DNA from: Ectocarpus siliculosus
Lineage: Eukaryota; Sar; Phaeophyceae; Ectocarpales; Ectocarpaceae
NCBI GenBank assembly: GCA_000310025.1
Contig: FN648473.1
Coordinates: forward strand, 124,001-188,000
Direction of reading: 5' to 3'
Length of the DNA: 64,000 nt
Below, one piece after another: positions 5,881 through 55,110 of the stretch. Within the stretch, counting starts at the first letter, position 1, and every line of letters begins with the position of its first letter. A model generated the notes under the pieces. It saw only the letters and a list, made by a program, of their open reading frames with translations, ran no database searches and had not been told where the DNA came from. Both the position numbers and the translations under genes were made by a program.

Positions 5881-8800
5881 TATCTCGAATGGTAGTCTTT
5901 CTCTGCGCGTTTTTATTTTTCCTTGGTACTTACAAGGCCCCCCTTCGGGACGTTGGTGTCAGGCCCCCCGGGGGTGACGCAAGTAGGAAAGGAAGTAGGG
6001 AAGCCATTGGACTAAATTGCAAAGTTCGGTAGTGCTCGCCCCCGTAAAAAACATCCCGTGTATCATGGGACGGATGTGGCAACACGAAAACCATTTAGGT
6101 GGAAGAGGAACGATGCGTTGGTAGCGGCGCTAGAGGCTTGGCGGCTTTGGCGAGGCATGGATGTACGGTGTATTGATGGAGGGAGAAAGGGTGGAAGCTG
6201 TTCTGGCGGTGTGAGCTGGGATTTGTGATGAGAGGGTGTAAAAGGAGTAGATGCGAGGAGAGCCATCGTGAGAGCGAGTGCGGGCAGCCGAATATTTGCA
6301 TCCCACGGCAGATTTTTGCTTTTGGAACAGATTTTTCTTTTTTCGTTTTGAATCGGACTTACTTTCGCCTGTACATGAATAGACACATTGTTCTGCACAT
6401 GACCAGCCCGAGAAGGTATACTGATGCAGATGCATACACCGCGCCGTAATGTATGAATGAGTGTTGTTGCTGTGGCGTGTCCATCCGTGCGGGGAGCGTG
6501 AAGCTGTGGCGCAGTGATGGCCCGCCAGTGATGGCCCACGCCCTTCAGGACAAAATCGGAGGTTTGACCTATGCCATAAAGAAATAAGTCCAGTACCCAG
6601 CCGGTTTTCCTCCACTCACTGAAAAGACTCCACCATATCCCGTTCGACTTCTGTGGGTATATCTCGAATGGGTAGTCTTTCTGTGTGTGTATTTATTTTC
6701 CTTTAAAAATAAAACAGAACCTTTCAGTAATCGGCACGTTTCTACCTGTTGTCAGGTTTTTCGTTTTTGAGCTTGTTGTGTTGAATCGGACTATTTCTTG
6801 TTCTGAAGCTTTGGCTTCAGTCTCATCTTTCAATATCCGTGGAACTTTTATTCGCATAGCCCTCCGCTTGCCCGACCCTGTCTCAAATGCCGATCTCGAG
6901 CTACAGTGTAAATCTCGTGGCGCCTCGAGTATGGTTCGGTGTGGAATCGCAAACCATGAGCCGTCCCCGAGTTTGAGCAGCTTCCGCCTCCTGTGGCCGG
7001 CAAGAGTCGACCTTGACTGTTCCTTGCCCTGTTTCGCCATGGGAACGGCCGGTTGAACAGCGAAAGAGGGTCCTGCGGGCTGCGCGCCACAATACTTTTT
7101 TGTATATTTTTTTCGTTTGTTCGTGAGTGACCGTTGTACACATGCGGCTGCTGCTGCGGTTGCTGCTGTTATGCTCGGAATGTGCTGCAATGGTCGTACG
7201 GTTATCGTAGTCAGGTTTGACAACAGTCCGCTCGTTCGTATAGCGGTAGTGGTGCGCATCTATCGCAACAGCAAGCGCATTGAGGTAATAGTTCGTCCGC
7301 CGTGCTTCTAGTCTACACAGATAGTCGTGTTCTTCTTTGTTGTCACGTCATACCAGAAAAGAAAGAAAGTCTGCACCAACTTACAGTTTCTCCTACAGCA
7401 GTTCGGAAACGACGACTAGACTATTTTTCTTTTGTCGTGTTTGTTGTTGCTGAGCGCACATCGGATGTCGCCGTTCGTTACATGTGTTCAAGCCTGCGGT
7501 GGGCCAGAGGGATGAGAGTGGGTGTCTTCTCTAGAGTCCATGCCTTGTCTTCTCGAGTCTCTTTTCCTTTAGTCTACCTCTATCTCTCTCTGTTGCATTT
7601 TTGCCGTTAGGGTCCCAAAAACATCGAACGTCAATGGCAATCGTTTTGCATCTTGCTGAGTAGGAGGCTTCCCGTGTACCCGGTTGCTGCATGTGAGGCG
7701 GTGGGCGCCGCCTCTTTCCGTCAAGCAATGCGCATGGCCCCTAGGGTTCGCCGCACATGCAGTGCTGTGCGACAGCTTCCAGCGGTTCAGAGCGGTGACG
7801 ATGTTTTTCGCCGATAGGGCCCCAGAACAACGCGAACCGCGACTGTTTCATTTTTTTGGGGTCCCCCCATTCACCCAACCCATCCATCCATGAATTTTGT
7901 TTTTTGTGTTTCCCTGCCGACTAACAACCTCGGCTACTGCAGTTCAAATTTCGTGGCGCCTCAAATACGGTTCCGTAGGGAATTGCAAATCACGACCCCT
8001 CCCCGAATTTGAGTATAGCTTGAACCTCCTGCGGCGGATACGACCGACGTCAAACCCTGGATTTTGTCTGTCTGTGTCGCCATGTGGCCATCCACGAACA
8101 GCAAGCAGTTGGAGACTCACAATAAAGAGGGTCCGCTTCGCCACCAAGACGACAGTTTTTTCGATTCTTCTACAGCTGGATATGATGCTACCATGTATCG
8201 GGTACAGCTGTGATTGAGCTTGAGCGATAGGGTCTACGGCAGCACAATATTCTGTGCGAGGAGTTCACGCATTCCTCGCGTAACGATGCGCATCTCCCAC
8301 GGCAAGCAGAATGAAGTACGTCATCGTGACGCTATTTCTTGTGACTACAAGTTCAAGTTCGCCCGGGCGTTGTTGTTCTTACCGGAGAGAGAGACTAAAC
8401 TTCTACTATAATACAAGTATTTTGGCGGCTTACGCCGCCACGCCCAATGGAGCGAGTCCCAAGGTACATAGGGGCGGTCGTGTGTGGATCGTGGAAGGTT
8501 AACTCGACGTTATGTGTCGTAGATGCCCGGATGGTGCGCATGTCTATAGCGTGATAACATGTAGACGATGGCATGTAAACATAGGGGTGAAGTGCAAGTG
8601 TATTGTTGCAGAATCCAATGGCCACGCGCAGACACACGCTAATCCTAGATTGCGACACGCCGACGACACTCTGGCACGCAGACAAACTCGCCTCGCAAAA
8701 GGCAATCGACACGACAGTCCTATATGGCGACACGCAGCCTATAGTCTCGACCACCAATAAGCGACAACGACCGCACCCAATGATACGCGTACGACTAAGG

Positions 8801-24444: not shown

Positions 24445-25527
24445 CTATCCGTTCCCCCAGACGGTCCCCTCCCCCGGCTGTCTCGATACGATCCTACTGC
24501 CGTCTGTAAGTTTCCGTGACACTCGCCACGAATCCTCTACATTGTTTCGCGCGTACGGCGTGTATGCATCCGACCTCCACTTCCCTTCTCTCTGAATCAC
24601 TCGTTCTGCGATGTCTCCGCCCGATGCAAGAGCCGTCGCGCCTCCAATTCGCAACGAGTGCAACGCGTACTCCTGGGGGTTACGCCCCGACTTCGCTACC
24701 ACTTCTCTGACTGCACGGAGGGCAGCACTATACCTCGCTACTCTCACAGCTGTTCCACTACGGTACGAAGCTAACGGTGCGGAGTCAGGCAACGTCGCAT
24801 GACACGATAACAGCTCCACCACAAGAGCCACCGCGCCGCCGCGTGCTCTCACACCTGACTGCGGTCCGGTGACTTCGTCTCGCGTACGAACCCGTATGTT
24901 TCCTTTCTGCTCTTGATCGGCCTTGTGCCCTCTAAACCTCATTTCGACACGGTCTGCTCTACGATATTGACTAAAGACTAATTGCGTCTCGCCAGCAAAT
25001 AATGCTACATCCGCCCTCGTAAGACAGTGGGCCTCATGTACCCTGCCCGCATCATTCGCGAACACCTCATCAGACCGTGTGATGAAGAGATAGGACAAGC
25101 ACAGACACAGCCACATCACTCTGCCCCCTTCCCCCCAGTTCTGGCTTGCGCTTTCCCCGTCCAGCAGCATACGCCAAGACACAGGCAGACGCACACGGCG
25201 TACCGTCCCCATAGCCACGTGGTTCCTCGCAATCCCCCTTAGCGCACATTTCAACATCGGAGACGACAAGTCGAGCTCGACAGAAGCTTCCAGCCTATGA
25301 AAATGTTGTACAGCCGTGAGTTTTCCGGATATTGTACTCGCTAGATTACCCTCAGACTCGAAACACCAGGCTACGAAGTCTATCAACTCCCACACATGAA
25401 GGTCCCCGGCACGTTGCCCTACGAACTTGGGCTTCTCCGTCAGCCTCCGAAACGTGCACCAAGAGTTGAAGCTTGATGTGTAAGTCCTTCTAGACGAAGA
25501 CGCAACTGAGTGCTCGACGAGCTGCAT
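24445..25527 (-). CDS. Tyrosine recombinase of YR element 1
   Basis: 360-codon frame. Catalytic residues in order: Arg151 (TRSDE), Lys202 (GHKAD), His290-x-x-Arg293 (HSLRIGG), Trp317 (GKWRSD) and nucleophile Tyr325 (YTPYAR). The N-terminal core-binding part (TYTSSFNSWCTF, TISGKLTAVQHFH) is also typical. The enzyme cuts and rejoins DNA through a 3'-phosphotyrosine link, inserting the circular cDNA. It overlaps the end of the RT/RNase H frame by 88 bp in another frame, suggesting re-initiation or a frameshift. Only this gene of the element is uninterrupted with all key residues. Confidence 0.9.
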   Translation of the reverse strand: MQLVEHSVASSSRRTYTSSFNSWCTFRRLTEKPKFVGQRAGDLHVWELIDFVAWCFESEGNLASTISGKLTAVQHFHRLEASVELDLSSPMLKCALRGIARNHVAMGTVRRVRLPVSWRMLLDGESASQNWGEGGRVMWLCLCLSYLFITRSDEVFANDAGRVHEAHCLTRADVALFAGETQLVFSQYRRADRVEMRFRGHKADQEQKGNIRVRTRDEVTGPQSGVRARGGAVALVVELLSCHATLPDSAPLASYRSGTAVRVARYSAALRAVREVVAKSGRNPQEYALHSLRIGGATALASGGDIAERVIQREGKWRSDAYTPYARNNVEDSWRVSRKLTDGSRIVSRQPGEGTVWGNG

Positions 25528-27728
25528 GCCAAGACGTCGGTAACAAAGTCCCGTCCTGCCTGTCCCAGGTCCTGAACCTGCCAGTCGATATCCGGTCGGA
25601 ACGCGCGCAAGTTTGAGGCAATGCTATCGTGGTTCCACCGAGAGATGCCGTCTGCCAGTGTATTAGAGATGCCTTTCACGTGACGCGCGCGGAAACACCA
25701 CCCGCTTCGCATCTCTAAACATCCTAGAATACGCATTAGCGCTCCCGACCTCGGCTCTCTAGGTCCCCTGCAACGGTTACACCAATGGATGGAGCTCATG
25801 TTGTCCCCACGAAGCAAAACGCTTTGACCAGGATACTCGGGTGTAGAGTCTGCGTCTACCGTGAAAGCCCACGCTCTAACGACCATCCCCAACAGCTCGA
25901 GGACGTTGATGCTTAAGTCGTCTCTACCGACTGCCTTGCGACGCAGCCGTTGTCGGACATCATCCGAGAAATCCATTCGCCAGTATTGCCCCGACTCTAA
26001 GCAGTATCCTCCCATGGCGTCCCCACTCGCGTCACTCCACAGCGTTCGAGAGTGAGGTTGCAGATACATGCTGTAAAGCGGCATCTCTAGCCTACCCTCG
26101 CCGTGAAGGCCGCTGGCCTCTGCTAGCATCATACGCCAGAACGACGCATCGGCGCGGAACTCGGGACGCAGAGAAATGACCCGTCTCGATTGGCCCTGGC
26201 GTACACCCCCCTTCGAGCCGATGTACTTCTCTTCCCACGGTTGGGAGGGGGGCATACCCAACTGGTTGAGCATGCGTCGCACAAAGAACTTTCCAGGGTG
26301 AACAACCACACACACGTGCAACAACTTCCCCATCAGCGACCGCACTTCGGTCTCCGACGCGCTTCGACGAACTACCCATCCTTCAAGCGCCTCACGCAAC
26401 GTCGCTAACTTTTGTTGAGGAAGAGAAATCGACATAGCCTTCGTGTCTATTACCCAACCCAACACTTCCATGCTCGCCTCCCACGACGTAAGTTTGCTAG
26501 CTGAAAATAGTGGTGGGAAACCGTGGGGTCTGTCACCGAAGAGTCGAAAGTGGTCAGAAACGAGAGATTCGGAAGAGATCACACAACGGTCACCGCGGGG
26601 GTGGGACCAGTGCACTTCTACCCTATAACATCGTCCACATACGCCCGCGCGAAAAACGGGTCGTCTACTCCTCCACCGGAACCGGGTGGGATTGCACACG
26701 CCGCTGGCAGCATCGTTTGAACTTCTGCTGATTCCACCACCGAAATATGTGCGGTAGCAAGGCCGCCCTTGCGGCGTCGGCGTTGCGTTTGCGGCTGATG
26801 TTTTGTTGTGGGAGTGCTCAATCGCTGCTGTGCACAGACAAAAATACGGGGGGCTGAGGTTCCATCCAAACTGCAGTTGCCTGTCTACAACGAGCGTGCC
26901 TCCAAACACGTATCGGAACTTCGGGGAGTGCGCTCGCTCTACGGATACTTGCCGAAACGCGTCTTTGGAATCGACTTTAGCAATCAGAATTGTGGGGGTG
27001 TCTCCGTGGGCGTCACGCACAAACTTTCCATGCAGGTACAGCACGCGCCAAACCACATCACGCAATACGTGGCCCAGTTTGCAGACCGGTGCCACGGAAG
27101 TGTTGGTATCGTCGTTTACACCCGAAAATCGGAGATCGTTGATGATCCTAGCTTTCTTGGTGTGCACTACTACTCCCAATGGAGACAAGCGTAGGCCGGG
27201 AATCTGGTATGCCGCTGATCTGGGAAACACGAATGCACGCCCGTACCGGACGTCCTCCTTGATTGTTTTCTGAATGAGGTCCGTATGCTGTGAAACAGAT
27301 GCATGGTTACCGTACGCGAGAGTTTCATCTACGTCACCGCCTGCTGCTATCTGCACCGGGACACCTCTAGACACAATCCGCACCAGAAGATCGATGGAGG
27401 GGAACTGTTTTACCCCACCAAACCATTGACGCACGCTACGTGGGTCTGCTTGCGGCACGGGCAGTATTGTTTCGAGTTGCGACATGGAATCGAAGTCCCC
27501 TGCATGACTAAGAAGGAAAGCAAGGCTAACGTCCTCTACGCGACTCAACGCTTTCCTCGCTGATTCGCCCCCCCTCGCGGCAATTAGTTCGTCCACCGCA
27601 TGTCCATAAACACACACGTCGGCATCCACACCTGCTGATAGCCCTGGGGCCAACCTCGTGTAGACCGGCGTGCTGCCGTTCAATTTAGCCGCATGTGCGC
27701 TGCCATCCGAGGTAGGCCCCCCCGCCAC
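25440..27728 (-). pseudogene. Reverse transcriptase-RNase H of YR element 1
   Basis: 762-codon frame. RT: GLRLSPLGVV and KKARIINDLR before motif A (AKVDSKDAF, Asp253), then motif B (FGWNLSPPYF). The catalytic motif C is not in this frame: AYVDDV lies at about 26625-26640 in another frame, between about 26770 and 26620, so two compensating shifts replace the active site with a nonsense stretch. RNase H is complete and of DIRS/Ngaro type: Asp566 (WSDAS), Glu611 (NVLELLG), Asp642 (RGDNMSS) and Asp693 (NTLADGISRW). Alignable throughout with element 2 (42.3-44.6 kb). Inactive unless the shifts are bypassed or are assembly errors. Confidence 0.85.
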
Positions 27729-27746
27729 GCGGGAGAGCCCGCACCC

Positions 27747-29212
27747 CTATTTGTCTTTCCCGTGGGTGAAGAAGTCAGCGGCCTTGGGTCTCGCGCCGCC
27801 CTCGCCAGCGGCGCGCGCCTCTCCTCCGCACCCTCCCCCGTTGCCGTGGCCAACGCTGCGACCGCGGTGCTTGTCGCTCGTGGCGCTCCCGCCGACACCG
27901 CCCCGGCCGACACGAAACGTCACGCTGCTGGCTGCCCTCCCGCGCGCGCCGGTTGCCGGAGTTTCGGACGCTCCGCGCCTAGCGTGAGAAGGGTTCTGGG
28001 CGTGGATGTATGGGCAGTTACGATCATGGCAACCGGACGACGAGTTGAAGGCGAAGCAGTAACCACGCGATCTTCCGGAAGTGGTCCCCCGGGCTCGCTT
28101 GGACGGCGATAGGAGCTGTTCTCCTGCCCGTATCTGAGGCTGGTAGAAGGCGGCGGCGCCGACCCCGCCCATGGCGATGAAGCCAGTAATCCTCTTCCAC
28201 TCGATGGTTACCACGGGCGGACAATCCTCGATGACAGTCGGCGGCGCAGAGTTTGTTGTCTTGAAACTGATGGCGGCGTCAAACCACCGCGATGCGGACA
28301 GGATTAGGTCGTCGTTGATGAATCCCGCGAACCGGAGTTTGTTCGCGGGATTCCGCATCTCGCCGCGGTTTTTCACGACAGTGCTCGGTGACCATCTCCA
28401 AGCCGACGTTGAGGGACTCCTCGAGGATGCCCACGCGCTGGAGACTCTCGGAATCGGTAATGCCTGTTTTGAGCAACGCCGATATGGTCGTGATGAGGAT
28501 CGAGAGCGACTCCTTCCAACGGAACGTCGGCGTTAGGCGTGTCAGATCCCGAACGGTAGTCTTCCACCCGGAAGTTCGAGAGCGTGTCGAGCGATGCCGC
28601 CACTTTCTCTGTCACCAGAACGCCTTTGCGAAGCAAGGATTGCCACTCCATCTGCGACAGTTTTGAAACTGCCGGAGGCCGTCCCAGGATGAGCCACGCT
28701 TTTACCCGGCGGAGGTCCCCCCACATCCGCGCTCTATCCTTTGCCGCAGCTTTAGCCGCCTCGGCGCTGGGTGTAGCGGGGGCCCGAGAGGCCGGTAGTG
28801 GGGCGGTTGTGCCCACCAGTTGCACCTCCCCCTGAAGGCCAGGTCCTGCTGCTTGGGTGGCGATCAGGTCGTCGATCGTTGCTTGAAGCTGCTGGCGATC
28901 TCCGGCGGCCTCATCGCGCTTCCGCTGCAGCTCCTCCCTCAGGCCGTCCACCAGCCCGCGGAGAGAAGCGAGCTCAGTCTCATCAGCGGGGGGGTCGCCG
29001 CGGGTGCCTGTCCCTCGCGCTCGCGAGGAGGATACCGCTAGACGCCTCGCGGGAGTACGTGATCCGCTGCGCGTCGAGGGGCGAGCCGTCGAGCTCGCCA
29101 CCGATCGCGTGGTAGACCTCCTCGTGCGTGGTGTCGAGGGTGTCGCCGCCCGACCTCGCCCTGCTTGCCCAGCCGCTGCCCTGCCGCTCCGCGTGGAGGC
29201 CCGTGTCGGCAT
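27747..29212 (-). pseudogene. Gag of YR element 1, with a CCCH zinc finger
   Basis: Starts at Met 29212 with an Arg/Ser/Thr-rich basic region, then a coiled coil (ETELASLRGLVDGLREEL and on to about residue 140). The frame is lost near 28500 and again near 28370; the final part (28376-27747) contains a CCCH finger, C-x8-C-x4-C-x3-H, at 28058-28002 (CFAFNSSSGC then HDRNC and PYIH). Gag would bind and package element RNA. The same finger spacing occurs in the Gag-like frame of element 2. The C-terminal tail is Gly/Arg-rich and ends 18 bp before the RT frame. Confidence 0.75.
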
Positions 29213-29625: not shown

Positions 29626-30475
29626 CCATCGGCACGGGTGCTTCCACTCATTGGCGCGTCCCGTGCTAATACGTGTTTTTATTCTTTTCTTCGATGCGTT
29701 GGATACGGTAAACTCCACTTGCCAACAGCGCGGGTGCTTCCACTCATTGGCGCGTCCCTCGCTGAAACTGACAACACACATATGCAGCACGGGTGCTTCC
29801 ACTCATTGGCGCGTCCCGTACTGATACTTATACGCAGCGCGGGTGCTTCCACTCATTGGCGCGTCCCTTGCTGAAACTGACAATGCATATGCAGCACGGG
29901 TGCTTCCACTCATTGGCGCGTCCCGTACTGATACGTGTACGACTTCGTTTTCGATGCGTGGAAATCGGTTAATTCTACTCGCCAACAGCACGGGTGCTTC
30001 CACTCATTGGCGCGTCCCGTGCCGATACGTGTACGGCTTTTTTTTTTTTCTTCTTTCTTGTTGAGATCGGTTAACTCTACTCGCCAACAGCACGAGTGCT
30101 TCCACTCGTTGGCGCGTCCCATGCTGAGGCTGACATCACATATGCAGCACGGGTGCTTCCACTCATTGGCGCGTCCCGTACTGATGCGTGATTTGTGGTA
30201 TTTTTCTACCGCTGTGTCGAATTCGGTTAACTCTATTCGCCAACAGCGCGGATGCTTCCATTCGTTGGCACGTCCCGTGCTGAGGCTGCCAGCACACATG
30301 CAACGCCATGCGGTCAGCTCTACTCGCCAACAGCGCGGGTGCTTCCACTCATTGGCGCGTCCCGTGCTGATACATGTATGACTTCGTGTTTCGGTGCGTT
30401 GAGATCGGTTAACTTCCACTCGCCAACAACACGGACGAGTGCTTCCACTATTGGCGCGTCCGTGCTGGTGCGTGT
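29626..30475 (-). repeat. Hairpin array 1: 11 units in the leader of YR element 1
   Basis: Each unit (plus strand) is CAGCACGGG + TGCTTCCACTCATTGGCGCG + TCCCGTGCTG. The outer 7-9 bp are complementary and the 20-nt middle is nearly invariant. The middle block starts at 29641, 29737, 29796, 29846, 29903, 29997, 30099, 30156, 30255, 30342 and 30442. Stems differ between units (CAGCACGGG, CAGCGCGGG, GGCACGGG) and partner arms often, not always, change to match. Five units are preceded by GGTTAACT-CTACTCGCCAA. Spacings (50-102 nt) are not multiples of three, so this array is not translated. Array 2 has the same design with a different loop. Confidence 0.85.
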
Positions 30476-38288: not shown

Positions 38289-39240
38289 GGAACAACGCGG
38301 TGGTTGGTTTTCTCAATGCCGGAGTTGTTGCAGACTGGGCTGTGACCGCAAAAAAATGGCATCGCTGTCATTTGAAGAACAAGGATTTCTGTTCCACGTG
38401 ACGGGCCGCGAGAAAAGCTGTGTGTCGTTTTGGAATGACCCAACCACGCAGAATCAATATATAAATTGCCGTGTGCCCACGGCTGCTTCCCCAATTGAGT
38501 TTTCTTATTTCAAGTTCTTGGGGATGTAGGCTTGTGGGTGTTGACGACCCGTATCGGCTCTCGAAGAGGTGTTGTTGGTTGTCGTAAAAAAGGGTAGTCC
38601 AAATTTACTCTTGAGTTGGTGCGTGCTCTCTCCACAGGGTGTCGCGCAAGTAGAACGTGCGTATGCAGCAATGACCACTGATGATGTACATAAGCAGAGC
38701 ACCCGATTGTGCCAAATCTTGTAGTCACAGGTCAAAGGCAACACTCAAGTGCTGCGTGTAAGCCTGAACGTGTCCTGTACGGCTGCAGCGCGGCGTGCCA
38801 ACTCACTTGTTGTGCCGCTGGACCCTTTAGTACGAGAGGCTTGGCTCTCAGTACTACGCAGGAAGGTCCGATGCATACATATTTCCGAGTACGCAAGTCT
38901 GAGCTACTTGCACTATGACATATTTCTGGAAATAATCTAGGTAATAATGCAAATTATTTCTGGATATGAAACACAGAACATCAACCATGTCTCCATATTC
39001 CGAGTATGACAGACCATACGGAATGTTACCTACTGTGGTAGTACGTAGGTGAATCTGTGGTTTGTGGAGGCGTGTTGGAAATCCGAAAAGCGGGGATCGA
39101 AGAAAAATAGAGACAGCCTCGGTGTCAGAAAGTTTTTGTGCTCTCGCTGGGCGAGAGACAAGCAAGTGCGTTTGAGAGAAGGAGAGGAGTAGCAGATACA
39201 GCAGCTTTGAGGAGCAGCAAACACGGGGTGCCGCCTAGGA
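38289..39240. other. No gene; second copy of a dispersed ~50-bp repeat
   Basis: 38467-38505 is the reverse complement of 18095-18135. The AGTACGAGAGG string at 38830 is discussed under rejected items. Nothing else supportable. Confidence 0.5.
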
Positions 39241-39255
39241 TTTGATTGATTTCGG

Positions 39256-41160
39256 GATGGACGGCAATGATGGGCAACCGGCGAGGGCGAACGGCGCCGC
39301 GGGCGTCGGGCGGCCAGTCAAGGCAATCCGGCGGACGGCAGTCCCCCAAGCTCGGCCGCCGGTGGCGGGGACGCCCAAAACAGGCAGCAGCAGCAGCAGC
39401 AGCAACAACAACAGGCAGCAGCAGGATCAGCAGCAGCAGCAGCAGGTCAGGTGCCGCAGCAGCAGCAGCAGCAGGATCTCCAGCATGGCCACCCGCAGCA
39501 ACAAAACGACGGCGGTCCGGCGGCAGCAATTCCGCCGCCGCCGCCCATGATTCACGGAGCCCCCCAACCTCAGCTGATGCAACAGCAGCAGCAACAGCAG
39601 CAGCCGCAGCAACAGCCCCAGCAACAGCAGTAGGAGGGCAGTGGGAGTAATCCGAACCTCTTCGCGCTGCTACAACAGCTCGTGACCCAGAGCAGTCGCC
39701 AGCAACAACAGATTCGGTCTCTCCAGGAGGTGGTCGTAAATTTGACCGGCAACCGGCAGCCCGCCCAGGGCGCCGCGGCCCACAACAATGCCCGGGATGG
39801 CCTCGCCTACAACAATAGTCAGTCAGTAGTCCTCCCCCTGGTCCAAGAGCCGCCGCCGCCGCCGCCGCAGCAGCAGCAGCAGCAACAGCAACAACCTCAC
39901 CAGCAGCAGCACCAGCACCAGCAGCACCAGCACCAGCAGCATCAACCTCACCAGCAGCACCAGCAGCAGCACCGGCAGCAGTCGCAGCCGCAACCATTGC
40001 AACAACAGTATCAACACCAACAACTGCAGGCCTACCCCCACCAGCACTACCTCCAGTCTTCGTCCGCCGCGCCCCAGGGATACCAACAGCTCGTGAGCAT
40101 CCCGGGGGCCGCGCCTGTTTACAATGCCCATCGGCTGAAAGAAGCCCAAAGGCTGGAGGGCCGCACGTGGGAAAAAGACGGCCAAGCGGCCCTGTACCTA
40201 ATGCGAGGTGCTACCTTCTCGCCCGTCGTCATGACGGGGGGCGAATTCGACCACATCATTCGTGACGTGGCCCACCCGCAACCGGGCCTGCACGCGCTGC
40301 TTACCTTCGGCGCCGTCGACATTGCGGCGTTCTCGCCGCCGCGCCCCCCGGGGGTAGCGGCGGTGACACGCATGTTCGACGTGCATCTCGACACCTTCGT
40401 TCGCGTCCTGGAAGTCTTCATCAAGGACGGCATGGCGGGCGCCTCGCCGGCCGGGGCCGACAGGGTTGGCCTGTTTTTCCGGAAACTTTTCATGATCTCC
40501 GAGGACCTCCGCCACTCACCCCCCAATACGGTGGGGGCGATCCAAGTCCCGCAGTTCTCACGGACGTTGATCCTGATTGCGGAGGGTACGGCTTCTTCGA
40601 TGGTGGGTCTCCTGCAGGGGGGTCTAGCCCGTCAGCAGCAGCCAAACACGGCCGCCGCTAGCACCAAGCGCAAAGCTACTTGACAGGGTCAACCTGCCTG
40701 CACCCCCGCCGCACCAGTCCCATACTCTTCCACGGCAGCCGCCAACGCGTTTGCACAGACCGTTGCCGCCTGGAACACTCCCGACAACGAGTGCTTCTAC
40801 ACGTGGTCGGGCACGTCCTGCACACGCCCGCGGTGCGAGAAGGGGCACACCCAGCGGCACCCGTCACTCTTGCCTGCTGCTCCTCCCCCCCCCCCCCTCC
40901 GCCCGCTCCGCCCGCTCCTCCCGCTCGTGTCCCCCCTGCTCCGAGAGCGACACAAGCACCAGTCGCGAGGTACAGCCATGGAGGCGGCCGGGGAGGAGGA
41001 GCAGCTGGAGGAGGAGGAGGTGGAGGGCGCGCGGGAGGAGGCCGTGGCGGTACCAATCCGTGACGGTGCGGGCCCCACTTCCACGAGGTGGGACCGACAA
41101 GGGGGGGTGGCGAGCTTGGCACGGGAGCGAATGCCTTTGCGGACAGCAGAAGGACAGTAG
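39256..41160 (+). pseudogene. Gag-like protein of YR element 2, poly-Gln, CCCH zinc finger
   Basis: The start is probably ATGGACGGCAATGATGGGCA (39257); a shift inside the CAG tract moves to the main frame, which is open to TAG 41158 except for single in-frame stops at 39631 (TAG) and 40681 (TGA). The N-terminal third is Gln-rich (CAG/CAC runs); the middle is globular (QAALYLMRGATFSPVVM, VEVFIKDGM-like and FFRKLFMISEDLRHSPP). After the second stop comes a zinc finger, C-x8-C-x4-C-x3-H, at 40792-40848 (CFYTWSGTSC, TRPRC, EKGH), with the same spacing as element 1's Gag. A Glu-rich tail follows. Gag identity rests on position and finger; the globular part was not recognised. Confidence 0.6.
39376..40010 (+). 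repeat. CAG/CAC trinucleotide tracts
   Basis: Interrupted CAG, CAA and CAC runs at 39376-39480, 39574-39633 and 39863-40010, encoding poly-Gln and Gln/His stretches inside the Gag-like frame. The opposite-strand frames (poly-Ala, poly-Leu) are mirror artefacts. Confidence 0.85.
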
Positions 41161-41276
41161 CGAGTGTGGGAGTTCCCCTTGTCGGTGGCACCCGCTGTGT
41201 TTTACGGTGAGGGCATGAGTTGCGAACCTGTAATTTCCCATACTGTCAACTGTTTGGATTCGTTTTCACCCTGCAT

Positions 41277-42273
41277 AGTGGCGGACACCACTCACGCCAA
41301 AACGTCAAAAACAGTAGCTACGGGGGCGGACACCCCCGGCGCTAAGTACGGGTCATATAACACACAAGCGGAGGACACCGCACTGGTGATAGATAGGTCA
41401 CAACTATTGGCGGACACCAATTATGCGAATACTGACACACACCGGGCGGACACCCGGTGTGAACATGAATTACCCTCACTCCCGCATACGGTGGACGCCG
41501 TTCCCGCGATAAACGCACTATCGAAAACCTATCACTCCCGCAAACGCTGGACGCCGTTCCCGCGAAAAACACACTAACGGAAAACCTATTGGCGGACACC
41601 AATAGCGGGTTCAATTACTGCTCTGCCTTGTACTCCACGAAGACTGTGGTGGACGCCACACGTGCTGAACAATGCAATGCAGTCGCCTCGGGGGAGGACA
41701 CCCCGGGCGAATATAAGTGGCCCCGCGGCACGCAAGCGGTGGACGCCGCGAGCGTTGTCGGTAAACAAAAAATACTGGCGGACACCAGTAGTGTGCAATG
41801 TGAACATGCATTACCCTCACTCCCGAAAACGGTGGACGCCGTTCCCGCGGAAAACACACTAACGGAAAACCTATTGGCGGACACCAATAGCGGGATCAAT
41901 TACTGCTCTACCTTGTACACCACAAAAAGACTGTGGCGGACACCACACGTGCTGAACAATGCAATGCAGTCGCCTCGGGGGAGGACACCCCGGGCGACCA
42001 TTATTGGCCCCGCAGCACGCAAGCGGTGGACGCCGCGAGCGTTGTCGGTAAACTGAAAATACTGGCGGACACCAGTAGTGTGCAGAAGGACATACACGAG
42101 GCGGACACCCTGCGTAAGAATTTGTCAGTCACACAGCCCCGATTGGCGGACACCATTCGCGGGAACGACACGGAATTGGCGGACACCATGACCGTGTCAA
42201 AAGCTACCCCGGGGGCGGACACCCCGGGGGATGCATCGTTGGCACGTAGGGCACTAGCGGCGGACACTGCTAG
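41277..42273 (+). repeat. Hairpin array 2: 23 in-frame hairpins with a constant GGAC core
   Basis: Twenty-three units have a core (C/T/A)GGAC(A/G), nearly always closed by GG and CC, inside arms that differ between units yet usually stay complementary. Examples: CACACCGGG/CCCGGTGTG (41439), CTATTGG/CCAATAG (41586), TACTGG/CCAGTA (41774), CCCCGGGG/CCCCGGGG (42208) and CTAGC/GCTAG (42254). GGAC starts at 41283, 41328, 41373, 41412, 41448, 41493, 41549, 41594, 41651, 41696, 41741, 41780, 41834, 41879, 41938, 41983, 42028, 42067, 42103, 42148, 42181, 42217 and 42262. Core types: CGGACA 14, TGGACG 6, AGGACA 3. Twenty of 22 spacings are divisible by three (45 nt eleven times). They encode Ala-Asp-Thr, Val-Asp-Ala or Glu-Asp-Thr. 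Units 8-12 and 14-18 are a later 285-290-bp duplication. Confidence 0.9.
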
Positions 42274-43870
42274 GGCCGCTGACATCACAAAAGTAATGCG
42301 ACAGGGTTGCGGGTCGAATTCAGCGATTTCTCACTTTGGGGCGGGGAAAGAACCTTCGGCCCTAGAGAGTCCAAAAAAGACAACCTTTTCGAGAAACTTA
42401 AAAACTCTGACCGATAGACTCGAGGCACAGAGAAGCATGCTCGCGTCAAGCCTACACTCACTCGACGAGAAACAATGTATCATTCGGAAGATGGCGGATA
42501 TTGGTAGTTATTTGGTAAAGCTTCACGATGGAAGGCTGGGAGACGTCGCGAGGGGAATCGGCGGCACTTTGGTGTCACCGCCGTTGGACGTGAGCGCCGT
42601 CAAGCAGTATGTCGGAGAGGAGAAGGGTTTCCCGGGTATCGATGACCTCATTGAGATAGTCGGTGAAGGAGCCCCTGCCCCCACTCTAGTCTCGCAGCAA
42701 AATCTCAAGAAAGCCTTGGCATACGGCAACCACCGTAGCGTAGACGATCACCAAACACAAGTGTGGGGAAAACTATGCGACGATGTCAAGCGTAATAGGT
42801 GTATCGTCCTGGGAAAGTGGAACGCATCGGACGTACGTGGGATTAGAGTAGCTCCGTTGGGAGCGGTCCCAGGAAAAAAAGTGAGGATCATCAACGACTT
42901 CTCTTTTGACCCAAGCACAAGCAAGGGGTCAAAATGTGGGCTCAACAAAGATACCATCATGTCTGGAGTACCACGTTGCCTGTGCGGCGAAGCACTCCCA
43001 GCTTTTCTCGAGGAGCTCACTAGCCTACGAGTAAGATGGCCTGACAAGAGAATTCTCGCAGCCAAGGCTGATGTCACCTCAGGGTTCAGAAATGTTAGGA
43101 TTTTACCAGATCATGCTCACAACTTTTGCTACGTGATAGGAGACGTGCTAGTAGCGGATCTACGGCTGACATTTGGCTGGGCAGCTTCACCAGGATTGTG
43201 GGGTGTGTTAGCCTCCGCTGCAGAGCACTCGCACCGCAAGACGTCCCTCGCGAACGCCCGACTACTACCAGAAGGAATCGCAATGATGTCTCACGTCAAA
43301 ATAAAACCCCCTTGGGAAAAAGGCACCCCAACCCCAATACCATCGTCGGCAGGCGTACAACCGCATAGAGGAGGGGACCCGCGGACGATTTCTTGGCCAG
43401 GGTCTACGTTGACGATTTCTTGCTCACGAAGGTCCAGCATGACCCCACCGACAAATCGGCACTCATTGCTTCCGCCTCGCTAGCTTCGGACCATGTCAGA
43501 CTGTTTGGCGAGGGAGAAGTCGGAGAAACCCCCATTCTTGCCCCGAAAAAGAGCACCGACTGGGACACGGTCATGGAGGCCCTGGGGTACACCATAGACA
43601 CGCATGATGGCAGAATTGCAACTACTCCCGAATGGGTAAGCGCGATCCGGAACACCCTAGAGGTGGCTTGGCCCCACGATAGGAAGAAGGCCAGTGTTCA
43701 AGAAGTCCTCAGAGGAAAACTTTGGAACCTCACCTATGTCATCAGGGCTGGTAGGTACTTTATGTGGCAACTGCTCCGCCTATCGGGTCTGCATACGCAA
43801 GCCAGTCGACACACACGGTCACGACGTCTAGTGGACTTGGGTAGAGAGTTCCACGGCGATATCGCCTTCT
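41891..43870 (+). pseudogene. Reverse transcriptase of YR element 2, N-terminus encoded by the hairpin array
   Basis: One frame is open from 41891, through the last nine array units, to 43483. RT blocks: ALAYGNHRSV, VRGIRVAPLGAVPGKKVRII, motif A (AAKADVTSGFRNVRI) and motif B (FGWAASPGLWGVL), each matching element 1. The catalytic YVDD (LARVYVDDFLL) is in another frame at about 43410; the reading continues there to about 43870. The gap between motifs B and C could hide a mini-intron (GT at 43296, AG at about 43376), which would restore frame, or a simple shift. The upstream array units continue the same peptide style in two other frames, so the coding region probably once began before 41277. 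Confidence 0.8.
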
Positions 43871-43872
43871 GG

Positions 43873-44585
43873 AAGTGGCCCTCAACCAGCCCCTGGCCCA
43901 TCGAGGGGAGTCCCTCAGCGCATCATTCCTACTCCACGTTAAACGAGCACCATCACGCCTCTACCTCTCAGACGCTAGCTTCACAGCGATTGGCGGCTAC
44001 TGCCCCGAACTAAAGACTTTCTGGAGATACACGATCGAACCCTCGCTGTCTGCGGAGCTCAAGCGCAAGGTGCAGGTGAAGGAGACGTCAGACATTACGA
44101 TCAATCTGTTAGAACTCACGGGCATGTTCATGACGGCGTGGGTAGTCCAAATGATCCTGAAAGACAGACCCGTAGAAGAAGGGCAGTCGGTGTTGATGCG
44201 CGGGGACAACGTGTCAGCCGTCAGCTGGACTAACAGGTGTGGGGGGTCGCGTGACAGGCGCGCTAGCCTCATAATGAGACTCATGGGTAGGATGGAGATT
44301 TCTTGCGGCTGGTGCCACGTGGCCAAGCACATCCCTGGTCGAAAGAACACACTCGCGGACGGGATCTCACGTTGGGAAGAAAACGAGATCGCCGCCAACG
44401 TAAGAATGCTCACGAAAGACTCAGGGTGGACACAGCAGGATATCGGGGAGGGGGAACGAGCGTTGCTCAGCATTATTCTCCAAAAGAAATTACCGAAAGA
44501 TAGTCTGGACGACTCGGTATGGACATTATGGTCCAAGGAACAGAGAATGTCCGACACGGCAAAGAGATCGAAGGTAGGGCAGTAG
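43873..44585 (+). pseudogene. RNase H of YR element 2
   Basis: The frame changes at about 43873, after DIAFWKW, and then runs 236 codons. DIRS/Ngaro-type RNase H: LSDASFTAIGGY (Asp), INLLELTGMF (Glu), MRGDNVSAVSW (Asp) and HIPGRKNTLADGISRW (His, Asp). All match element 1 position by position. It stops at 44585. Confidence 0.85.
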
Positions 44586-44699: not shown

Positions 44700-45160
44700 G
44701 GATAGACGGGGGAGGCAGAGTTGGTTTGGACGACCAAGTTTTCTGATCTCCCCTCAAGCCAAGTTGGGGCTATCCCGGGTTCGGCATGAATTTGTCGTAC
44801 CTTAGAATGGAACCTCGAAATGTACGCTTTCCTTACGCTGTTAAAACCCGGTGATGGAATATCAGGAACACAGGGAAATGATGGCCGGGGAGGCACGAGC
44901 GACGAGGGGGAGCAGTTGGTCAACGCACTCACCTTCGGGTCGTTGGGAAGTGGTACCAATAAGGTGTATCAACGGATGTGGAACACGTGGAAGGAGGCTC
45001 GAGCAGGGGCGGGTTCGGGCCCGTGGCTCAGCGAGAGCGATGGGGTGGGAAGTGCGGTGCGTAAGTTGTCTGTGTCCATGGCTTGCCGGTGTTTCGGTCA
45101 CAAGAACCAGAGTCAGACTATTCGCGGGTACACAGGTGGCCAAAGTACACATTGGGGGTA
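44700..45160 (+). pseudogene. Tyrosine recombinase N-terminal fragment of YR element 2
   Basis: From about 44905 the frame reads QLVNALTFGSLGSGTNKVYQ, RMWNTWKEAR and SQTIRGYTGGQSTHWG. This is the core-binding domain of a YR-retroelement recombinase, alignable with the first 75 residues of the element 1 enzyme. The catalytic domain is absent: homology ends at about 45150, exactly where hairpin array 3 begins. The 120 codons upstream are not clearly conserved. Confidence 0.65.
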
Positions 45161-45490
45161 GGTTGGGAGCACCCCCAATGTCGGGCAGGTTGTGGAGGGG
45201 GGTTGGGAGGCAGCCACAACCTTGGCCAGCCCTCTTGGTTGTACAAGGCTGGGTGCTGAAGGTTGGGGGGGCTGTCACAACCTTGGCCAGCCCTCCTGGT
45301 TGTACAAGGCTGGGTGCTGAAGGTTGGGAGGGCTGTCACAACCTTGGCCAGCCCTCCTGGTTGTACAAACACAGACCCAACAGGTTGGGAAGGGGCTACA
45401 ACCTTAGGCCAGACCTCCTGGTGGTGAAACCACCGAAGATACAGGTTGGGAGGCAGTTGGCAACCGATCCCGCCAGACAGATTGGAAGCT
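45149..45490 (+). repeat. Hairpin array 3: GGTTGGGAGG-core repeats
   Basis: The first hairpin is an 11-bp perfect stem, ACATTGGGGGT/ACCCCCAATGT, around loop AGGTTGGGAGC (45149-45181). The second is AGGTTGTGG/CCACAACCT around a loop holding GGTTGGGAGG (45187-45222). Two near-identical ~62-bp units follow (AAGGTTG/CAACCTT stems; TTGGCCAGCCCTCCTGGTTG spacer), then diverged ones to about 45490, including GGTGGT/ACCACC. It replaces the rest of the recombinase gene. The layout (invariant core, changing stem) mirrors arrays 1 and 2. Confidence 0.75.
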
Positions 45491-54640: not shown

Positions 54641-54649
54641 AAGATAGCC

Positions 54650-55110
54650 TGAAGCAAGCGGATAATGCAAGACACAATCAAGTCGTCCCCACCCAAAACA
54701 CGGAAATTAGACGAAAGCAAGCGGAAAAGCCGAAAACAAAACGAGCAAACCAAAGACAGTAAGTCCCCATGCGAAACAAGGAAGTTAACAGAAAGCAAGC
54801 GGATATCACAAGACATAATCAAGTCGTCCCCACCCAAAACAAGGAAATTAGCCGAAAGCAAGCGGATAACACAAGACACAATAAAGTCATCCCCACCCAA
54901 AACAAGGAAATTAGCCGAAAGCAAGCGGGAAAGACGAAAAACAATCGAGCAAACCAAAGACAATATGTCCCCATGCGAAACAAGGAAGTTAACAGAAAGC
55001 ATGCGGATTACACAAGACACAATCAAGTCGTCCCCACCCAACACAAGGAAATTAGCCGAAAGCAAGCGGAAAAGACGAAAAACAATCGAGGAAACCAAAG
55101 ACGTCGCGGC
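54650..55110. repeat. 63-bp minisatellite, coding-compatible
   Basis: About seven units of AGCAAGCGGATAACACAAGA + CACAATCAAGTCGTCCCCAC + CCAAAACAAGGAAATTAGCC. They mix with a variant having TAAGTCCCCATGCGAAACAAGG. The unit length keeps frame, giving a plus-strand 21-residue repeat (SSPPKTRKLAESKR) open from 54665 to 55339, and an equally open hydrophobic frame on the minus strand. Either could be fortuitous. Confidence 0.75.

Follow-up and report, generated by a model that had tools for sequence, protein, structure and literature searches.

Introduction

Repeated stem-loops that share one loop motif are known as packaging signals of viruses. In the parts of the source papers drawn on here, the alphavirus signal consists of GGG stem-loops inside the nsP1 coding sequence (PMC8233893), the reverse-transcribing hepatitis B virus has multiple stem-loops with an RGAG loop motif as packaging signals (PMC7612645), and the Gag protein of mouse mammary tumour virus reads exposed single-stranded GGAG and AG purines (PMC8096270). 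For translational readthrough, the sections of PMC3542737 considered describe a type II signal, in which UGA-CGG is followed at about 8 nucleotides (nt) by an extended stem-loop, and UAG-GGR as a type III context. Ngaro retroelements are defined, in the excerpts used, by split direct repeats, a reverse transcriptase (RT) and a tyrosine recombinase (PMC8547959, PMC4157794), and the consulted portion of a paper on Ectocarpus transposable elements reports 15 Ngaro families (PMC12477816). Here, we describe 23 hairpins with GGAC loops that form an in-frame array in a 64,000-nt stretch of the Ectocarpus siliculosus genome (contig FN648473.1, positions 124,001 to 188,000), hereafter the window, in whose numbering all coordinates are given. 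The array belongs to what is, by gene order and repeat layout, a decayed copy of a tyrosine-recombinase retroelement of the Ngaro type. Further copies and loci carry the prefixes C and L, and families 1 to 4 are numbered by us without a tree.

The Hairpin Array and Its Pairing

The array spans positions 41277 to 42276 of the plus strand, between the Gag CCCH finger and the RT, and was traced by a core scan, by pairing, by covariation and by a covariance model. The first-pass annotation of the window had described 23 palindromes with a shared GGAC core closed by GG-CC, and this description is borne out. Twenty-three [CTA]GGAC[AG] cores run from 41280 to 42266, all on the plus strand, with GG before 22 of them and GC before one, and the full core GG-N-GGAC-N-CC is exact (GGNGGACNCC) in 21 of the 23 units of the window copy (locus L001). 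The 8-mer GG[CTA]GGAC[AG] is also scattered over the rest of the window, nine times on the plus and 14 times on the minus strand. Loop ends had been said to co-vary as C..A or T..G, rarely mixed; the window units hold 14 CGGACA and six TGGACG loops and none with mixed ends, with a third class of three AGGACA loops that had gone unnamed. Among 266 units from 16 copies or old fragments including the window, the corresponding counts are 166, 58 and 33, besides five TGGACA and four others; units entered this set only if they held GGAC and had no more than one mismatch in GG/CC, and the constancy of GGAC within it is therefore no result.

The in-phase spacing is likewise as first described, since the distance between neighbouring window units is a multiple of three in 20 of 22 cases, and 45 nt in eleven. 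The two odd spacings of 56 and 59 nt look like indels private to the window copy, because five other copies (C79b, C8a, C27, C182 and C141) have 57 nt at both places. All spacings are multiples of three in eight of 16 copies, and the others show one to four exceptions, the window copy two. In several units, a small internal loop with mismatches separates an inner from an outer stem. The window holds 11 different 5-nt inner arms, three of which share a 3' arm, and a 287-nt duplication lies within the array.

A covariance model was built from 37 units, 23 of which were taken from the window and match by construction. Run over both strands of the 64 kilobases (kb), it returns 23 units at an E-value of 0.006 or better, followed by the minus strand of two array units (E 0.5) and one match at E 0.62; a search of the whole window against Rfam gave no match at gathering scores. 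From 5' to 3' on the plus strand, the hairpins lie at 41272-41297 (hairpin 1, 24.7 bits), 41317-41342 (hairpin 2, 29.3 bits), 41362-41387 (hairpin 3, A..A loop, 26.2 bits), 41401-41426 (hairpin 4, 27.5 bits), 41437-41462 (hairpin 5, 30.3 bits), 41482-41507 (hairpin 6, U..G loop, 24.9 bits), 41538-41563 (hairpin 7, U..G loop, 23.6 bits) and 41583-41608 (hairpin 8, 30.4 bits). They continue at 41640-41665 (hairpin 9, U..G loop, 24.5 bits), 41685-41710 (hairpin 10, A..A loop, 26.9 bits), 41730-41755 (hairpin 11, U..G loop, 31.4 bits), 41769-41794 (hairpin 12, 31.7 bits), 41823-41848 (hairpin 13, U..G loop, 27.2 bits), 41868-41893 (hairpin 14, 30.4 bits), 41927-41952 (hairpin 15, 27.4 bits) and 41972-41997 (hairpin 16, A..A loop, 26.9 bits). 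The last seven are found at 42017-42042 (hairpin 17, U..G loop, 31.4 bits), 42056-42081 (hairpin 18, 31.7 bits), 42092-42117 (hairpin 19, 24.8 bits), 42137-42162 (hairpin 20, 30.4 bits), 42170-42195 (hairpin 21, 29.1 bits), 42206-42231 (hairpin 22, 29.7 bits) and 42251-42276 (hairpin 23, 30.2 bits). In copies C2 and C8b (loci L011 and L012, 1915), the counterpart of hairpin 22 carries its loop inverted between unchanged palindromic arms, an arrangement suggestive of inversion at the palindrome or of template switching there. No second case came to light in the 16 loci examined.

The compensatory change of stems proposed at first sight is confirmed by several counts. Across the 18 distinct window hairpins, 73 pairs are formed at stem positions 3-8, where shuffled 3' arms give a mean of 46.0, and the contiguous stem amounts to 51 against 10.3; neither value was reached in 20,000 shuffles, nor was it when one unit per distinct inner 5-mer was kept (11 units, three of them sharing a 3' arm). 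G-U pairs (3) and A-C mismatches (8) are both scarcer than in the shuffles (11.4 and 15.3). The covariation test that had been called for, made on 37 units from three element groups (33 distinct rows), gives a score of 0.392 versus 0.150 for shuffled controls (standard deviation 0.021), with slid controls between 0.066 and 0.141; none of 500 shuffles reached it, a count that is not a probability as the shuffles leave the kinship of units in place. Loop ends behave in the opposite way, forming a standard pair (G-U included) in 24.2% of cases versus 39.1% after shuffling, the observed level being equalled or exceeded in 500 of 500 shuffles, and a Watson-Crick pair in one of the 33 rows.

Arrays that are 64-75% alike to the window (copies C55, C25 and C14) allow double changes to be followed at the window's Watson-Crick pairs. 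Of these, 17 again form Watson-Crick pairs, one is G-U and six are broken, compared with 313, 27 and 501 at 7,079 non-hairpin control pairs; for stacked pairs only, 13 of 20 are Watson-Crick (P 0.011). Taken singly, C55 pairs better than nearly all shuffles (total pairs 0 and contiguous stem 2 of 5,000) and C25 does so for total pairs (12 of 5,000; contiguous stem 415 of 5,000), and pairing in C14 and C16, with three units each, is not significant (838 and 822 of 5,000).

Coding Frame and Variation Among Copies

The frame of the array is free of stops over 0.7-1.1 kb in four of 12 copies tested (C8a, C182, C11 and C2), the other two frames of which contain 8-21 stops. The repeated peptide [AVELSPTGK]-D-[TAV] occurs 23, 24, 23, 15 and 24 times in five copies. 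Its Asp codon is GAC throughout, except that four copies have GGG-GAT-GCA once each; the codon before it is almost only GCG, GTG or GAG and the one after it ACC, GCC or ACT, with two CTG and one TCG in C79b as exceptions, and GAT and other Ala/Thr codons do occur elsewhere in the array. At an E-value limit of 10, none of 3,845 candidates matched 170 residues of array peptide and flank in a protein search.

Nine near-identical copies vary least in the loops (3 of 132 columns), followed by the inner stems (18 of 264), positions 7-12 (42 of 266) and the spacers (51 of 291); compared with the spacers, p is 2.5e-6 for loops and 1.6e-4 for stems, with the qualification that the units were defined on C182, which leans slightly to low loop counts, and that the copies are related. 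Variation in the spacers is spread over the codon positions (17, 19 and 15 of 97 each, or 0.175, 0.196 and 0.155), whereas the RT shows 24, 30 and 53 of 380 each (0.063, 0.079 and 0.139). Because loops and stems vary less than spacers, and because spacers show no codon-position bias, the hairpins rather than the peptide seem to be conserved. The earlier view that structure and reading phase were selected together thus gains from the covariation, from the double changes (17 of 24 versus 313 of 841), from the four stop-free frames and from the lower variation of hairpins than spacers in the nine copies; selection on the array peptide itself finds no support in the spacers.

Related Families

Comparable arrays, on which the first-pass annotation had made its proposal depend, occur in relatives: 15 further copies or fragments carry array units, and a second family has an array of its own. 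Family 2, whose RT DNA is 64-66% alike to that of family 1, has at the same place upstream of the RT (L036-L053) in-frame units of the form GACC-stem-loop-stem-GGAGA in a 120-nt repeat, with linkers that contain GGAGAAGA. Its 18-nt units form stems of 4.94 versus 3.80 with shuffled halves (0 of 300). In seven family-2 copies, 8 of 350 hairpin columns and 35 of 719 linker columns vary (p 0.047, a weak difference), and the RT, in which 27 of 650 columns vary, shows no codon bias (9, 8 and 10), for which reason the constraint on the family-2 hairpins must be regarded as weak.

Local folding (40 shuffles each) gives z-scores of -4.8 for the C182 array of family 1 and -8.6 for the L037 array of family 2. 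In family 3, two copies score -1.8 and -0.5, in family 4 the window copy scores +0.8, and the RT controls give -1.4 (C182) and +0.8. Family 3 (L057-L059, 170-1640) carries a duplicated unit of about 684 nt ahead of the RT, with a loose in-frame S-D-T/S-D-A repeat every 51 nt or so and few hairpins. The more distant family-4 element lies at 25440-29200 of the window on the minus strand and has a Gag with a CCCH finger and a Pol frame of 762 amino acids.

The Gag Stop Codon and the Downstream Hairpin

The array had been placed at the Gag-RT boundary, where it indeed lies; more exactly, it forms the first part of the Pol frame, past a Gag stop that looks leaky. A UGA in the context UGA-CGG stands between Gag and Pol at 41061-41063 (plus strand), and 7 nt past it follows a hairpin (41071-41095, plus strand) that is likely a stimulator of readthrough, with one base of the 3' arm unlike that of other copies such as L003 and L005. 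The family-1 hairpin reads GGCCCCAC.../...GTGGGGCC, and the array starts about 210 nt downstream of the stop codon signal. A stop, 7 nt and a hairpin of 9-11 base pairs (bp) are present in all four families examined, with stems that differ between families and with the contexts UGA-CGG (family 1), UGA-CAA (family 2), UGA-CAG (family 3) and UAG-GGR (family 4); in families 2 and 3 there is only a resemblance to the CAR with which the type I motif begins. In the window, the family-4 element has the stop AAA-UAG-GGG at 27749 and an 11-bp hairpin 7 nt on.

The spacing is constant at 7 nt wherever a stop precedes the hairpin; in L052 no stop stands ahead of the hairpin, and the search in L006 and L014 gave no match. 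A scan for a stop, 7 nt and at least 8 bp returned one match in each of seven loci, a single one, at 27749 in the family-4 element, on the minus strand of the window between 25300 and 29300, and none on the plus strand between 39000 and 44600, where one arm base differs. Classical -1 slippery heptamers were absent near the gag/pol junction of four loci, and the frames point to an in-frame stop. Stop and hairpin are likely a programmed Gag-to-Pol readthrough signal. A translation-control element between gag and pol, as the first-pass annotation had offered for the array, thus fits the junction, but the likely element is the separate hairpin that precedes the array (41071-41095).

The CCCH finger of Gag, C-x8-C-x4-C-x3-H (CFYTWSGTSCTRPRCEKGH), lies at 40792-40848 on the plus strand. 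It stands in the frame of the stop in five of the 22 loci with a match (L003, L004, L005, L009 with one residue different, and L047), a total that includes L018 as a chance match. In the remaining loci, the window copy among them, the frame from finger to stop is interrupted or the flank is too short. In family 4 the finger is in the stop's frame in the window copy and not in L062.

The Host Element

Copy C8a has the repeat layout A1-[open reading frames]-B1-A2-B2, with B1 and B2 95% alike over 211 nt, and copy C11 shows the order RT with YVDDF, further Pol part and tyrosine recombinase with HSGR; together they match the published Ngaro layout. In the window, the left direct repeat A1 (39040-39253, plus strand) is 97% alike over 215 nt to the B1-B2 internal repeat downstream of the recombinase in C8a. 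A direct repeat was looked for in a 1.6-kb stretch of C11 and none was found. From its Gln-rich part onward, the Gag frame of the window copy is open at 39682-40680 and meets a stop at 40681. Past the array, the RT part of the Pol frame follows at 42302-43480, recognised by its relatives and conserved columns, then further Pol sequence at 43875-44582, which by its position we take to be RNase-H-like (it has no Pfam match), and the start of the tyrosine recombinase at 44851-45160 (end approximate), all on the plus strand. The recombinase breaks off ahead of 61-nt tandem repeats at 45201-45451; further long tandem repeats lie at 54645-55102 and 29726-30302.

The RT piece has 23 homologues, the closest being a protein of Ectocarpus sp. 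CCAP 1310/34 (93% identity over 76% of the piece), and its probable identity as a reverse transcriptase is based on the motif YVDDF, which the relatives share with C11. No RT match was obtained in Pfam at E up to 5, and a search of the PDB gave no solved relative. Among viral contigs compared with the RT alignment, 70 stretches fit the pattern and none is a relative. Two RT relatives (P0006 and P0021) bear repetitive N-terminal extensions ahead of the RT (GETP/GETI and HEM, respectively). The C11 recombinase matches Phage_integrase (PF00589) at E 0.001 with 19.3 bits, under the curated cut-off of 27.1, and the recombinase frame of L055 has HSGR followed later by a Tyr, residues which we assume to play their usual roles. 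A methyltransferase had no Pfam match in the pieces scanned, which cover part of the element and in which the same scan missed the RT as well.

Discussion

We tentatively propose that the array is a multivalent RNA signal that is read by Gag and serves packaging, a reading to which we give a serious chance, though somewhat less than an even one. The array would be a cis-acting structure of the element RNA, embedded in the Pol frame about 210 nt past a leaky Gag stop. The stem of a unit would need pairing alone, and the loop would present GGAC between C..A, U..G or A..A, so that some 22 like-oriented units would form a multivalent site for one loop-reading protein. Indeed, the combination of variable stems, a fixed loop and one orientation fits a protein that reads the loop on any stem. 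The likeliest partner would be the element's own Gag through its CCCH finger, and it is this finger together with the viral parallels that makes us favour Gag binding and packaging: the array would mark full-length RNA for uptake into Gag particles. Most ribosomes would end at the UGA and the array would seldom be unwound, and readthrough of the open array frame would still yield Gag-Pol.

Several results weigh against this reading. In family 2, it is the stem base that is conserved and not the loop, and 16-nt units pair no better than shuffled ones (3.55 versus 3.44, 75 of 300). Families 3 and 4, both more distant than family 2, are without a clear hairpin array, the latter with a CCCH finger, and an array is thus not required by every such Gag. 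The binding sites for a CCCH-finger Gag suggested by the first-pass annotation have such a finger at hand, but in the window copy it lies outside the UGA frame. A replicate comparison of C2, C8b and C30 with C11 did not repeat the loop effect: 11 of 96 loop, 14 of 192 stem and 48 of 378 other columns vary (p 0.86 for loops and 0.06 for stems against other). Six of the 11 variable loop columns fall in the inverted-loop unit shared by C2 and C8b, and without it the loops stand at 5 of 90 (p 0.06). Codon bias in the RT is also weaker in these copies (33, 31 and 48 of 370 each), which may therefore owe much of their change to post-insertion decay. The acting molecule need not be RNA either: single changes yield G-U and A-C equally (16 versus 17; controls 850 versus 927), interior pairs do not decide on the strand (22 versus 14), and on either strand the folding is better than in shuffled sequence (z -5.1 and -4.8, 20 shuffles for each). 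The uniform orientation of the GGAC loops argues mildly for one acting strand.

That the hairpins serve Gag-Pol translation instead, as a distal partner in readthrough or by slowing ribosomes after it, we consider unlikely. The array trails the leaky-looking stop by about 210 nt, and the luteoviruses, in which an element 700-750 nt past the stop aids readthrough according to the sections of PMC3542737 used, offer a precedent. However, families 3 and 4 have the stop-plus-hairpin and no clear array, and a ribosome stall needs no single invariant loop.

Quite unlikely is a role of the hairpins as single-stranded DNA or cruciforms in element replication, for example as sites for the RT or the recombinase. 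It would account for the lack of preference for G-U over A-C, and the inverted unit of C2 and C8b implies that the palindrome took part in a DNA or complementary DNA (cDNA) rearrangement. A cruciform, however, exposes both strands, whereas the GGAC-loop orientation is uniform but for one unit in 16 loci, and sites of phage-type recombinases keep their arm sequence, the opposite of what the array does.

Inversion or template switching does take place, as the same inverted unit shows, and template switching at hairpins might, by copying arm to arm, maintain the palindromes without selection on structure; the joint scarcity of G-U and A-C in the window units (3 and 8 versus 11.4 and 15.3) agrees with this idea. 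We hold it to be very unlikely, as mismatched internal loops between inner and outer stems persist in several units, and the loop, on which arm copying imposes nothing, varies least in the nine copies, with synonymous sites nearly fixed. It is highly improbable that the (Ala/Val/Glu)-Asp-(Thr/Ala) peptide is selected and the palindromes are its by-product: the phase is kept, the frame is stop-free in several copies and family 3 has its S-D-T/S-D-A repeat without strong hairpins, but synonyms are scarce in the loop codons, spacer variation is independent of codon position and a peptide has no need of complementary flanks. A functionless one-off tandem expansion, to which the 287-nt duplication might point, is scarcely credible in view of the covariation, of the array that family 2 has and of the 11 different inner arms (three with a common 3' arm).

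Returning to the Gag-read packaging signal, we advance with more reserve, as a possible but doubtful generalisation, that Ngaro-type elements of brown algae have evolved a translated packaging array. About 1 kb of Pol, with a peptide that could vary almost at will, would present some 22 like loops on diverged stems to Gag in the ribosome-poor zone past the stop, balancing translation and packaging, and a related family would have swapped the motif and kept the layout. We know of no mechanism by which tyrosine-recombinase retroelements select their RNA for packaging. With about 20 natural hairpin variants, several copies and a counterpart in another family, loop recognition, the need for a stem and the specificity of the Gag finger are all open to experiment. 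The stop-plus-hairpin of four families, if it truly acts as readthrough, would moreover be a mechanism of Gag-to-Pol expression for such elements.

Neither the hairpin array nor the stop-plus-hairpin is mentioned in the limited portion of open-access Ngaro and Ectocarpus element literature searched: "hairpin" has no occurrence in the main texts of PMC8547959 and PMC4157794, nor have "hairpin" and "palindrom" in that of PMC12477816. The present element shares with Ngaro, as defined in the excerpts used, the split direct repeats, the tyrosine recombinase and probably the RT (PMC8547959, PMC4157794), and differs from the descriptions examined in its hairpin array and gag-stop-pol layout. Its UGA-CGG or UAG-GGR with a structure from about 8 nt downstream resembles readthrough types II and III as presented in the sections of PMC3542737 considered, but occurs, as a predicted signal, in an algal retroelement. 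As to the array, we regard it as a real and unusual variant of repeated-hairpin signals, well supported as a structure and with a putative function. Like the alphavirus nsP1 signal, in the part of PMC8233893 drawn on, it consists of repeated stem-loops with one loop motif inside coding sequence, although with 23 GGAC-loop units instead of 4-6, in a retroelement and as a putative packaging signal. With mouse mammary tumour virus it would share purines read by Gag, as the family-2 linkers with GGAGAAGA recall, whereas that virus has a single purine loop and another Gag, and the present element has an array. Hepatitis B virus has multiple stem-loops with one shared loop motif as well (PMC7612645, in the portion used), which are dispersed over the genome and read by the core protein, while those of the present array are phased.
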